Assembly (NCBI GenBank): GCA_028713655.1
Contig: JAQTNW010000042.1
Span: 1-32,018 of the forward strand
From: Candidatus Methylacidiphilales bacterium
Lineage (GTDB): Bacteria > Verrucomicrobiota > Verrucomicrobiia > Methylacidiphilales > JAAUTS01
Length of the DNA: 32,018 bases
Reading direction: 5' to 3'
Every line of letters starts with the position of its first letter. Positions within the stretch are counted from its first letter, which is position 1. Under the pieces are notes generated by a model. That model had not been told where the DNA came from. It was given only the letters and a program-made list of their open reading frames with translations, and did not search any database. Below, one piece after another: positions 2,666 through 32,018 of the stretch. The position numbers and the translations under genes are program-made.

Positions 2666-2695
2666 ATGGAGGGACGACCGCTGTGTCGTCCCATT
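2666..2695 (-). repeat. REP-like hairpin element, copy 1
   Basis: A 30-bp element begins one base after the stop codon at 2665. Its core is GGGACGAC, a six-base loop and GTCGTCCC, a perfect 8-bp stem. The reverse complement is identical over all 30 bases to 13967-13996, and a decayed copy starts at 17962. It looks like a bacterial REP or MITE-type repeat. It could also act as a transcription terminator or 3'-end stabiliser, but it has no T tract. Confidence 0.75.
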
Positions 2696-12067: not shown

Positions 12068-12973
12068 ATGCTGACGCTCCTGATTCTGGTACTGTTTCCA
12101 TTCGTGATATGGCAGGCCTATAAAAAGCTCCGCCTCTCAAAAGCCAGCGCCACATGGCCGACTGCGCCCGGTGTGGTGACCGCGGCTGAGCGCACAAAAC
12201 TCGCATGGCGCACCCAGCCGCGCGTTTCGTTCAGCTACGAGGTCGCCGGAAAGGCCTACAACTCCAGCAAGGTTTCGTTTGCCGACGTGGTGCCCGCACG
12301 CGAAACCGAACCGACGCTCAGCCGTTACCAGCCTAAACAGCAAGTTGTTGTACACTACCAGCCCGAAGATCCCGGACTGGCCGTTCTGGAGCCGGGTCCG
12401 AACCGTTATGTGAGCGCCGCGTTCCGCAATTACATCATCTGGTTTGTCCTCCTCATTTTCTTCAACGTCCTCTACATCGGCCTCACCGTCTGGCAACACA
12501 CCCAGGACATGCAAAAGCAACCTGTGCATACTTACGACGATGTTGCCAAGGCCGACCCGCAGCTTGGCAACCGTCTCCTGCGCGAAGCGGCGGAAAAAGG
12601 CGATGCAAAGGACCAGGTTTATGTGGCCATCTGGTATCTGACCGGAAAGGAAGGTTATCCGAAGAACCCGGCTGAAGCCGCAAAATGGTTTCGTAAAGCC
12701 GCCGATCAGGGCGACGCCGAAGCGCAAAACTGGCTGGCGGTGCTTTACAACAGCGGCAACGGCGTGGAAAAGAATACAACACTCGCGTTTGAGTGGCTGA
12801 ACAAAGCGGGCGCCCAGGGCGAACCGCACGCCTGTTACAGCCTCGGCTACGCCAGCGAAAAAGGCATCGGCGGAACGCCGCAGGACACGCAGAAAGCCAT
12901 CGAATGGTACCGCAAGGCGGGCAACGAACCCCACTCAAAAGCCGCTCTCGCCCGACTGCACGCCGATCCATAA
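12068..12973 (+). CDS. DUF3592 membrane protein with C-terminal Sel1 repeats
   Basis: From ATG 12068 the product is 301 residues. TM1 is MLTLLILVLFPFVIWQAY. Residues about 30-110 (TWPTAPGVVTAAER, VSFSYEVAGKAYNSSKVSF, YQPKQQVVVHYQPEDPGLAVL) are a typical DUF3592 domain. TM2 is near residues 122-145 (IIWFVLLIFFNVLYIGLTVW). After it come three or four Sel1-type helical repeats with A-E-A-A-K-W-F-R-K-A-A-D-Q-G-D and A-I-E-W-Y-R-K-A-G signatures. Sel1 repeats bind partner proteins, so this is probably a membrane scaffold, but no function is known. The downstream TolB-like gene starts two bases after its stop. An open frame from GTG 12002 is longer but not needed. Confidence 0.8.
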   Translation: MLTLLILVLFPFVIWQAYKKLRLSKASATWPTAPGVVTAAERTKLAWRTQPRVSFSYEVAGKAYNSSKVSFADVVPARETEPTLSRYQPKQQVVVHYQPEDPGLAVLEPGPNRYVSAAFRNYIIWFVLLIFFNVLYIGLTVWQHTQDMQKQPVHTYDDVAKADPQLGNRLLREAAEKGDAKDQVYVAIWYLTGKEGYPKNPAEAAKWFRKAADQGDAEAQNWLAVLYNSGNGVEKNTTLAFEWLNKAGAQGEPHACYSLGYASEKGIGGTPQDTQKAIEWYRKAGNEPHSKAALARLHADP

Positions 12974-12975
12974 AC

Positions 12976-13878
12976 ATGAAAAAAATCATTACGATTATTC
13001 TCACTCTTTCCGCTTGCGCCAACCTGGCATCTGCAGCGGATCAACCCGCGCGCAAACTTGCGTTCGAACGAGATGATGCGATCTGGATATCCAACATCGA
13101 CGGCGCCGCGCCCAAGAAAATCGCCGACGGCCAGTCGCCCGAGCTTTCCCCCGACGGCACCCGCCTCGCCTACAACACCGTGCAGGCAATCGGCCAGCCA
13201 GCCCATCGCCAGATTGCCGTTATCGATCTCGCCACCGGCAAGACCACTCTTCTCAAGGACATCCCGAGCGACAACTGCATGGAGGCGCGCTGGTCGCCCG
13301 ACGGCAAACGCTTGCTCTTCGATTATTACACCGATAACGAGCGGCGCATCGGTCTCGTAAATGCCGATGGCAGCGGGTTTCGCTACGTCCAGCAATCCGA
13401 ACCGAAGCACCAGAGTTATTGGGCGGCGGCGTGGGCGGCTGACGGCCAGTCGTTTTTTGCCGAGGACATGGCAAATCTCTACCGTCTCGATCTCAACGCC
13501 AAGGTACTGAAAAAATGGGCTATTAATAAACTCGTCCCGCAGGGCGGCATGAGCGGCGAAGTGCGCCTCGACGCCTCGCCCGACGGCAAGACGTTGTTGA
13601 TGGACGTCGAAATGGATGAGAAGGAACGCAAGGATTGGGATGGCCCGCCGCCTTCGATCTGGACGCTGGATCTTGCAACAGAAAAAGCCACACGCCTGAC
13701 GCCCAAAACGCTCTACGCTTGGGATTGCCATTGGCTTGACGCGCCGAACTCGATCCTGTTTATCAGCCAGGGCCCCGGTGAGGAAAAAACGTCGATCTAC
13801 CGGATGTCCACAACAGGACAGGGGAAAGACAAACAGTTGCTCATCGAAAACGCCCGAGGCCCCGGCGCGTCGAGATAA
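12976..13878 (+). CDS. Exported TolB-like beta-propeller (PD40) protein
   Basis: The 300-residue protein starts MKKIITIILTLSACANLASA, a clear signal peptide cleaved after ASA. The mature part has repeated PD40/WD40-like units: SPELSPDGTRLAY, RWSPDGKRLLF, AAWAADGQSFF, DASPDGKTLLM. This is a TolB-type propeller without the TolB N-terminal domain, so it is a general periplasmic propeller, not tolB itself. It is separated by two bases from the Sel1 gene and is probably cotranscribed with it. Its target is unknown. Confidence 0.82.
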   Translation: MKKIITIILTLSACANLASAADQPARKLAFERDDAIWISNIDGAAPKKIADGQSPELSPDGTRLAYNTVQAIGQPAHRQIAVIDLATGKTTLLKDIPSDNCMEARWSPDGKRLLFDYYTDNERRIGLVNADGSGFRYVQQSEPKHQSYWAAAWAADGQSFFAEDMANLYRLDLNAKVLKKWAINKLVPQGGMSGEVRLDASPDGKTLLMDVEMDEKERKDWDGPPPSIWTLDLATEKATRLTPKTLYAWDCHWLDAPNSILFISQGPGEEKTSIYRMSTTGQGKDKQLLIENARGPGASR

Positions 13879-13912
13879 AGCACCTGCGTTTTTGGCATTG
13901 CGGATCGCGATT

Positions 13913-13956
13913 TTGGAGTGCGGTGGCAAGCCCGGAGGGCGCAACACCGCTTTGCC
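13913..13956 (+). repeat. Intergenic hairpin repeat (GCGGTG...CACCGC)
   Basis: GCGGTG at 13920-13925 and CACCGC at 13945-13950 form a stem around a G/C-rich loop that itself can pair. It lies just before REP-like copy 2. Text of this form (GGAGTGCGGTGGCAAG...) recurs in related genomes as far as I recall; only one copy is in this window. Confidence 0.4.
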
Positions 13957-13966
13957 TCCGATTCAA

Positions 13967-13996
13967 AATGGGACGACACAGCGGTCGTCCCTCCAT
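13967..13996 (+). repeat. REP-like hairpin element, copy 2
   Basis: Thirty bases identical to the reverse complement of 2666-2695, with the GGGACGAC...GTCGTCCC stem. It lies between the convergent TolB-like gene and the lone receiver gene, 11 bases beyond the latter's stop, where a bidirectional 3'-end element would be expected. Confidence 0.75.
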
Positions 13997-14007
13997 GCCC
14001 TACACCC

Positions 14008-14382
14008 TCAACACAGCAGCACTTCACGCACGGTCTGCCGGAATTCCTCGGCGGCAAACGGTTTGTGCAAGACCGCCCTCGCGCCGAGGCCGCTGGCAAT
14101 TTCCAGCATGCCCGCGCCTGACAACCCCATGCCTCCGGCCGAAATCGCAATAATCCGGGTCTGCGGGCAAAATTCAATGGCCTTCTCGATTGTCTCGATG
14201 CCGTCCATCTCCGGCATGAAAATATCCGTGATGATCAGGTCAAAATCATTTTCTTTCTTCAATAGATCCAGAGCCTCGCGCCCGTTTGAAACCCCGACAA
14301 GCTGGTGATTCAGTTCCGCCAGCATCATTTCAATCTGCGCCCGCGCCGATATGCTGTCTTCCACAATCAAAATCTTGCTCAT
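14008..14382 (-). CDS. Single-domain response regulator (CheY-like receiver)
   Basis: From ATG 14382 the product is 124 residues, one receiver domain: MSKILIVEDSISARAQIEMM with the acidic pocket Glu-Asp, the phospho-acceptor Asp53 in LIITDIFMPEMDG, the switch Ser in IIAISAGG and Lys in VLHKPFAAEEF. There is no output domain. It is the third gene of a minus-strand operon, 33 bp after the GYF_2-receiver-PATAN gene, and likely takes phosphoryl groups from the Hpt domain of the hybrid kinase. An upstream in-frame start at 14397 would add five residues. A decayed relative of its C-terminus lies at 18584-18709. Confidence 0.92.
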   Translation of the reverse strand: MSKILIVEDSISARAQIEMMLAELNHQLVGVSNGREALDLLKKENDFDLIITDIFMPEMDGIETIEKAIEFCPQTRIIAISAGGMGLSGAGMLEIASGLGARAVLHKPFAAEEFRQTVREVLLC

Positions 14383-14415
14383 AAAATTCGGATTCACCCG
14401 ACGCGCGCGCCCCGC

Positions 14416-17961: not shown

Positions 17962-17989
17962 AATGGGACGACACAGGGTTCATCCATCT
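17962..17989 (+). repeat. REP-like element, decayed copy 3
   Basis: The first 14-15 bases (AATGGGACGACACAG) equal copies 1 and 2. The second half matches at about nine of 13 positions, so the stem is broken. It lies in the 242-bp divergent gap between the hybrid kinase and the antitoxin gene, a region that holds no other clear feature except the toxin-antitoxin promoter region. Confidence 0.55.
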
Positions 17990-20325: not shown

Positions 20326-20576
20326 GACTTAACGCAAAGTCGCAATGCGCCTGTGGCGCACGCCAAGGCGCGGAAAACCTGGCCTCAGAACGCGGAGACG
20401 GGCGAAAGGATTCAAAATTCCGAATTTAAACTTCCACCTTCAACCTCTATCCCCCTGACAAGGGGGAAGTAAAGGGGGTTTGTGTTGCCCGCGAAACACG
20501 CGGAAATCTGAAGGCTGAAAGCCGAACGCCCGCAGGCTTTAAACTTTAAACTTTAGATTTATAACTCTGATACTAC
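20326..20576. other. Intergenic mosaic of short repeats
   Basis: The 251-bp gap between eda and the convergent receiver-kinase holds no gene. It contains a perfect hairpin TGCGCC-TGT-GGCGCA (20346-20360) 20 bp past the eda stop, without a T tract, then the 43-bp repeat at 20444-20486 and an AT-rich run of TTTAAACTT units near 20538-20560. Confidence 0.6.
20444..20486 (+). repeat. 43-bp dispersed repeat, copy 1
   Basis: An exact duplicate of 27321-27363 in the same orientation. It starts CCTCTATCCCCC and carries a TCCCCC/GGGGGA hairpin with loop TGACAA, then GGAAGTAAAGGGGG. Flanking sequences on both sides differ, so the 43 bp behave as a unit. Confidence 0.8.
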
Positions 20577-26921: not shown

Positions 26922-27158
26922 CAGGACCCCCTTATTGGATTCGGAGTTTGAACGACGGGAAAAAACCCGCGGGTTTGGAGGCTATTTCAAGGCCGGAAAA
27001 ACGGAGCTTTGAAATGAACCTAATATAGGGGAGATGATTCCGTTTCAAAGTCATAAACAATTCTAATCCAGCAATATTTAAAACTTATTACTCCCGCCTT
27101 TCTTACAGGTATTGCCTATTAGAGGTCAAACCAAAAGGCGAAGGGGGGGGACTGAAGT

Positions 27159-27186
27159 TTTAAGTTTGTAAGTCTTAAGTTATAAG
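27159..27186. repeat. AT-rich dispersed repeat, copy 2
   Basis: Matches 897-924 at 27 of 28 positions. It lies just after an eight-G run in the gap between the receptor operon and kdgK. Confidence 0.6.
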
Positions 27187-27271: not shown

Positions 27272-27320
27272 CGAGTGGTCATTCCACTCGCGAAGTCTAT
27301 GTCTATCAGAGTTCCTTCTG

Positions 27321-27363
27321 CCTCTATCCCCCTGACAAGGGGGAAGTAAAGGGGGTTTGTGTT
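27321..27363 (+). repeat. 43-bp dispersed repeat, copy 2
   Basis: Identical over all 43 bases to 20444-20486, same orientation, with the TCCCCC/GGGGGA hairpin. It lies 60 bp beyond the kdgK stop. In both places the repeat is close to a gene 3' end, so a role in transcript ends is possible. Confidence 0.8.
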
Positions 27364-31889: not shown

Positions 31890-32018
31890 GCGGAAAAAGG
31901 GGTCAGTCGTCTTATCTTGACAAAACCCAGAAGGAATATAGACAGGTGATATGGCGCGGCAGGTCAGGATTGAGTTTGCGGGGGCCATTTATCATGTGAT
32001 GGCACGCGGGGATCGGCG
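31890..32018 (+). mobile_element. Left end of a RAYT/IS200-like element
   Basis: The stretch from about 31890 (GGAAAAAGGGGTCAG) up to the transposase start resembles, as I recall, the conserved leader found before Y1-type transposase genes in many genomes. It also contains a consensus TTGACA (31917-31922), but no -10 at the right distance. GTCAG and CTTGAC may form an imperfect terminal hairpin. The element runs off the window, so the right end cannot be seen and the exact left boundary is a guess. Confidence 0.5.
31951..32018 (+). CDS. REP-associated (Y1, IS200-like) transposase, N-terminus only
   Basis: Only 22 codons are inside the window: MARQVRIEFAGAIYHVMARGD and the start of what follows. 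The pattern of a short basic start, then A-x-Y-H-V-x-x-R-G, is the standard N-terminus of the Transposase_17 (Y1) domain used by RAYT proteins. The HUH motif and catalytic tyrosine lie beyond the edge. RAYTs are single-copy housekeeping-type transposases that handle REP hairpins in trans; hairpin repeats of that kind do occur in this window. Confidence 0.8.
   Translation, partial: MARQVRIEFAGAIYHVMARGDR

Follow-up and report, generated by a model that had tools for sequence, protein, structure and literature searches.

The hairpin at 2666-2695 of the window, by which we mean the whole stretch of 32,018 nucleotides analysed here, is a member of a genuine REP family of variant type. The family has a conserved stem-loop and a conserved GGAG head, and in other genomes it adjoins the genes of a clade of WD-type RAYTs. 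We hold it likely that this GGAG-tagged REP is mobilised in trans by a cognate short RAYT and not by the RAYT-like enzyme encoded in the window, the copies of the present genome being probably orphaned. In the mechanism that we propose, the cognate enzyme, a Y1 HUH transposase mostly of ~150-190 aa with the motif WQxxxWD[T/R], would recognise the single strand of the non-autonomous REP by its hairpin and its 5′ GGAG guide, and would cleave and copy the element, cutting and pasting it in trans. The cognate RAYT may have been lost here or may lie in the missing part of the assembly, which would leave the copies as an orphaned population.

A GGAG-tagged REP family in the genome

The window is the whole of contig C42; its assembly has 90 contigs, totals 3.29 Mb and is 95% complete and 0.09% contaminated. 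The first copy, ATGGAGGGACGACCGCTGTGTCGTCCCATT (2666-2695, forward strand), starts directly 3′ of the stop codon of the frame 1937-2665 and consists of the head TGGA (2667-2670), an 8-bp stem (2671-2678 with 2685-2692), the loop CGCTGT and the tail ATT. Its exact reverse complement, identical over 30 nt, lies at 13967-13996 on the reverse strand, flanked by two convergent frames (12793-13878, forward, and 14008-14397, reverse). A decayed copy is found at 17962-17989 on the reverse strand, matching at 84% over 31 nt and at 80% over 35 nt, in which the hairpin is lost (fold z of −0.5, where the intact 30-mers have −3.2). When its fold takes in 81 nt of context, the first copy has a z of −0.4 and a stability no better than that of shuffles. 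At up to three mismatches the 28-nt core matches the window twice, and 100 shuffles not once. The three places agree with the initial annotation, which had listed an inverted identical pair and a decayed third copy and had called the three intergenic; they do lie between the frames taken for genes, and mechanical frames on other frames or strands (2402-2809, reverse, and 13736-14308, forward, for example) overlap both intact copies. Two direct repeats are also present in the window: a 50-nt repeat with the core CCCCCTGACAAGGGGGAAGTAAAGGGGG (20437-20486 and 27314-27363, 96% identical), perhaps a second dispersed family, and an AT-rich 31-nt repeat (894-924 and 27156-27186, 94% identical).

The hairpin, which the annotation had seen in three places, is far more numerous in the genome as a whole. 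A perfect-stem pattern matched nine places, a head-anchored pattern 21 places and a 22-mer with up to three mismatches 23 sites, and the reversed control of each matched none. A relaxed rule applied to the pooled loci, with the decayed window copy left out, gave at least 26 copies as a lower bound, and these align without gaps as TGGA-GGGACGACCGC[C/T]GTGTCGTCCC-ATTT. All eight stem pairs are Watson-Crick in 19 of the copies and seven have one exception; the foot tetranucleotide is conserved, with a GGAG head in 24/26 and TGGA in 23/26, and conservation extends from the stem to the 6-nt loop and the 5′ head. The last G of GGAG pairs within the 8-bp stem, which sets it apart from an unpaired tag unless a stem of 7 bp is assumed. 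Over the 25 distinct rows, 99.0% of stem cells are paired vs 91.4% after shuffling. Three pairs are changed on both sides, vs 1.5 in shuffled rows (5 of 500 shuffles were as high), and 12 cells are compensatory, vs 3.2 shuffled and 0 in six slid frames. Inverted dimers, as in REPINs and BIMEs, occur on C9, with starts 32 nt apart, and on C20, with starts 50 nt apart.

With 26 copies and covariation in the stem, the family has what generally defines a REP, namely a palindrome of 20-40 nt that forms a stem-loop and is dispersed in many copies. Neither GTAG nor GTGG stands at the foot of any of the 26 rows, which places the family outside the GTAG REP superfamily, and it likewise falls outside the CGTC superfamily, which has the tag CGTC and no linked transposase, being tagged GGAG and linked to a RAYT in six genomes.

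Distribution of the hairpin and its possible origins

Beyond this genome the family is sporadic. The strict pattern was found in seven of 142 relatives, the own genome counted, and was absent from all six further members of the family, genomes of other genera that are 77-92% complete. A wider 24-mer pattern, which also takes in hairpins with other loops, matched 72 of 387 genomes of the phylum with 1 to 131 copies per genome, 21 of the 72 having a single match only; its reversed control gave 12 matches in 11 of the 387. When a collection of 84,980 species was scanned with a tighter pattern, 102 stretches were returned. Among the 80 of these listed with titles, 79 are labelled Verrucomicrobia, Spartobacteria, Chthoniobacterales, Opitutaceae, Pontiellaceae or Kiritimatiellae and the remaining one Neomarinimicrobiota. 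At many loci of other genomes two slightly different hairpins stand in inverted orientation. The presence of a near-identical repeat in very different hosts, together with its absence from near relatives, suggests mobility or horizontal spread.

The copies could have arrived by horizontal transfer or by larger duplications and never have transposed in this lineage, an explanation that fits the absence from the six other genomes of the family as well as the copies on C57 and C70, which share flanks and so probably reflect one event. Among the 325 copy pairs, however, 40-nt flanks are similar only in this pair and in the two dimers, all others differing, the identical 22-mer is kept in five copies, and no vehicle was found for a transfer, with 0 matches in viral contigs and a single distant protein match from plasmids. 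We therefore think it unlikely that transposition has played no part.

An intrinsic terminator, or another RNA element that is under selection and not mobile, would be GC-rich like this hairpin, and both intact window copies do lie 3′ of a frame end; on average, 3.8 of the 8 nt that follow the stem are T. Against this reading stand a loop and 5′ head kept as well as the stem, near-identical sequences scattered over distant hosts, and the copy L021 (G000:C48:15157-15181), which sits in frame inside a long open frame of 577 codons that we take to resemble a YD/RHS repeat protein. As there is also no Rfam match in the window at the gathering score, we rejected a terminator or Rfam RNA, and consider such an origin very unlikely.

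The RAYT-like gene of the window

A RAYT-type gene had been annotated as starting at 31951, and an ATG is indeed found there, opening the 5′ end of a Y1 transposase gene (31951-32018, forward strand) that runs off the contig at 32018. The gene looks like a member of the TIR-bounded, TIRYT-like class, and over its first 22 codons it is 82% identical to a complete 347-aa gene on C28. The first 127 bp of its unit (31892-32018, forward) are identical to C37:1-127 on the reverse strand; both contigs break off here, so the assembly was probably interrupted by a repeated unit. The sequence GGGGTCAG (31899-31906, forward), 44 nt before the ATG, does not belong to the REP family and fits GGGGWSAS, given as the TIRYT end motif in excerpts of two earlier studies (PMC3733652, PMC6006769), the match being one vs 0.18 expected in 519 bases, with 30 of 200 shuffles also matching. 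In a check for inverted ends the window gene showed this upstream element only, as the contig stops before the downstream end. The C28 unit has AAAAGGGGTCTG at its start and CAGACCCCTTT directly 3′ of the stop codon, and of its ends GGGGTCTG differs from GGGGWSAS at one base. The C28 protein carries the motifs NHYH and YVHLNP; at E≤0.001 Pfam gave no domain in it other than Y1_Tnp, the TIRYT feature being a C-terminal helix-turn-helix, and the window gene is truncated. Partial relatives or relics are present on C65, C2, C31, C35 and C6, and on C65 (L032/L033) there is, besides a decayed TIRYT-like relic, a further stretch of 27 bp that matches the TIRYT end.

The initial annotation had offered the hairpin family as a substrate of this enzyme. 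The first part of that proposal holds, in that the family is REP-like, numerous and found flanking RAYTs in other genomes, but the pairing with the window enzyme is not supported. The two share a genome and a window, and the class of the window gene is itself repeated and apparently recently active, to judge from the 127 bp identical on C37. Where the hairpin was sought beside the gene, however, a different sequence was found, both at its upstream flank and at the two flanks of the C28 relative, whose bounding elements are those given above. The REP family is absent from the 21 loci checked, which surround the genome's Y1 genes and relics, TIRYT-like or other, and in all of which the 22-mer has at least six mismatches; the copy nearest to the gene on the contig is the decayed one, at 13.96 kb, with an intact one at ~18 kb. 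Across the 387 genomes, with up to five candidates scored in each, window-type RAYTs (E≤1e-30) occur in 21/72 repeat-positive vs 67/315 repeat-negative genomes (odds ratio 1.5, p 0.16), and in 13/42 of those with at least three repeat copies vs 75/345 of the rest (p 0.18). Subclasses 2.1 (NH[YF]H, Y[IV]HLNP) and 2.3 are moreover described without REPs beside them in the excerpted account of PMC6006769. On ends, flanks and co-occurrence we discarded the window RAYT, which is probably not the partner of the REP, and its mobilising the hairpin in trans is scarcely credible. The other Y1_Tnp genes of the genome fared no better as candidates, the genes on C1, C5, C58 and C28 having no REP hairpin within 1.5 kb on each side and that on C58 no tagged hairpin. 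The annotation had paired the REP with the nearest RAYT and not with the RAYT clade found beside it in other genomes; occurrence in one window need not make a RAYT and a REP partners.

Short WD-type RAYTs accompany the family in other genomes

Y1_Tnp genes were present in all 22 repeat-bearing genomes tested, two of which (G100 and G155) yield the same places and are apparently a single genome. At 60 of the listed places, the recurrent tags of hairpins beside short RAYTs were GTAG and GGAG. At L248, in a Chthoniobacterales MAG (G159), the REP and a partner hairpin lie at and just before the gene start. A profile built from L248 and two relatives (A1) matched 149 of the 387 genomes at E≤1e-10 and 40 of these at E≤1e-45, with up to nine candidates scored per genome, so that enzymes may be undercounted; the 40 include G226, which is a member of the other GGAG clade. 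Thirty A1 loci were read, among which L265 is the same gene as the seed L239; GGA-tagged hairpins lie in the flanks of 20 and are missing from the other 10. The very same REP family is carried by four of these 20 (G092, G481, G184 and G241) and, in addition, by G356. The family, GGACGACC with or without the partner hairpin GGACGGGC, adjoins short RAYT genes at ~0.25 kb or less in six genomes: G159, G092 (4 copies), G481, G241, G356 and G184, where two of three copies are <100 bp from the gene. A RAYT flanked by the same hairpin, the arrangement that defines a REPtron, is thus found in these six genomes and not in that of the window. The RAYTs of G159 and G092 (L248 and L272) are sisters on the tree (SH-aLRT 97). 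L247 (G158) had been considered as a second cognate REPtron and was dropped, its nearer hairpin being GTAG-tagged and its label 'mixed'.

RAYTs of the A1 type (E≤1e-45) occur in 18/72 repeat-positive vs 22/315 repeat-negative genomes (odds ratio 4.4, p 4e-5), and in 15/42 genomes with at least three repeat copies vs 25/345 others (p 2e-6); the cut of 1e-45 was picked after the table had been seen and these Fisher tests, like those for the window-type RAYTs, ignore phylogeny. The link is not obligatory, since 54 of the 72 repeat-positive genomes, the own genome included, are without A1 at that cut, and GTAG-tagged RAYTs are present in some of the same genomes. Four genomes (G494, G131, G475 and G289) have 40 to 131 wide-pattern matches without an A1 RAYT at the strict cut, and their repeats are perhaps other families, orphaned or differently served. 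In the own genome a broad short-RAYT profile returned only the genes on C58 and C28 and no WD-type RAYT was detected, hence the REP family looks orphaned here.

Hairpins of the type GGAGGGACG also occur inside the open frames of RAYT genes with the frame kept, at L367 864-887 (G162), L365 (G206) and L366 823-846 (G356), in each case between the HUH and WQ motifs. In-RAYT hairpins are likewise reported for subclass 2.4 in the part of PMC6006769 that deals with it.

The GGAG tag and residue 101 of the RAYT

The 144 different RAYT domains of the fetched loci, which include low scorers and near-copies, comprise 48 with GGAG hairpins, 45 with GTAG or GTGG, 48 without a tagged hairpin and three mixed. 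At a score of at least 100, 88 of 123 domains are labelled, and block-shuffled flanks were labelled in 11 of 615 trials. Counting all 4-mers 5′ of hairpins with no tag preset gave GGAG 109 times beside WD-type RAYTs, the next 4-mer reaching 8, and GTAG 56 times and GGAG 9 times beside FDH-type RAYTs. On a tree of the 123 domains, computed with residue 101 masked, GGAG rows fall mainly in two groups, so that the RAYTs of two clades carry GGAG-tagged REPs. One group of 51 rows (SH-aLRT 89) has 33 GGAG, 15 without label, two GTAG and one mixed; the other, of 12 rows, is all GGAG (support 88), and its sister pair, labelled GTAG with GTAG and GTGG hairpins, has H as the residue, the 14 together having a support of 99.

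Residue 101, the position aligned with H101 of the E. coli enzyme (alignment to structure 4er8), tends to vary with the tag. Of the rows readable at this position, 41 of the 43 tagged GTAG/GTGG have H, and 42 of the 45 tagged GGAG have another residue, T in 22, R in 19 and V in one; five labelled rows are unreadable here. The exceptions are GGAG with H in L208, L220 and L310, and GTAG with T in L282 and R in L332; several FDR rows near L332 on the tree have no label or a mixed one. R at the position of H101 is also noted in subclasses with GTAG REPs, in passages of PMC6006769, and R alone thus would not decide the tag, given those subclasses and the unlabelled or mixed FDR rows. The tree requires at least four tag changes, but only two independent pairs are supported, and the pairing, though striking, is not significant once phylogeny is considered. 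We consequently dropped residue 101 as an independent statistical test. We consider it about as likely as not that the GGAG REPs form a further tagged superfamily whose RAYTs would have changed guide, from GTAG to GGAG or back, on two or more occasions via residue 101 (H for GTAG, T or R for GGAG), as a recognition code for the second guide base.

The biochemistry of RAYT-REP recognition in the literature that we found concerns GTAG tags. According to excerpts of PMC8266576, the E. coli enzyme does not accept altered versions of GTAG and in Marinomonas Mb the tag bases steer the cleavage site, which makes a natural GGAG system informative. If the guide base has changed in a family found in nature, and a protein position tends to change along with it, the recognition rule would become testable in vitro by swaps of residue and base.

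Comparison with known REP and RAYT systems

The REP feet described in the consulted portions of earlier work are GTAG/GTGG, CGTC (PMC3733652) and atypical ones (PMC6006769); these include a mention of GTAG repeats in O. terrae (PMC3733652), and the literature that joins RAYT and Verrucomicrobi, as far as it was covered, consists of PMC3733652 and PMC11588811. We found no description of GGAG-tagged REPs or of the REP 12-mer in the literature searched, with subscription papers and supplements outside its scope.

The truncated gene of the window resembles TIRYTs and subclass 2.1 in its end motif GGGGTCAG and in the NHYH and YVHLNP of its C28 relative; it is a neighbour of the REP without REP flanks, and probably not its partner. 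Hairpins without GT[AG]G beside Y1 genes are shared with the TnpA-Y1 enzymes of class 3 (foot CnGA) and with the REPs of subclass 2.6, as excerpted from PMC6006769, but class 3 enzymes have a Y----Q motif where those studied here have YxxxNP, and the consensus TGGAG foot misfits CnGA. The CGTC REPs (De Nocera 2013, PMC3733652) are also short tagged palindromes found in many genomes. They differ in their tag and in that no association with a transposase is reported for them in the excerpted text, whereas a transposase clade is linked to the family described here. With the GTAG/GTGG REPs and their RAYTs (REPtrons; REPINs/BIMEs) the family shares the short hairpin with its 5′ foot tetranucleotide, inverted dimers, dispersed copies, a cognate Y1 RAYT flanked by the same hairpins, and in-frame REPs in some RAYT genes. 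It differs from them in that the tag is GGAG, the position of H101 is mostly T or R, and the cases are almost all from Verrucomicrobiota.
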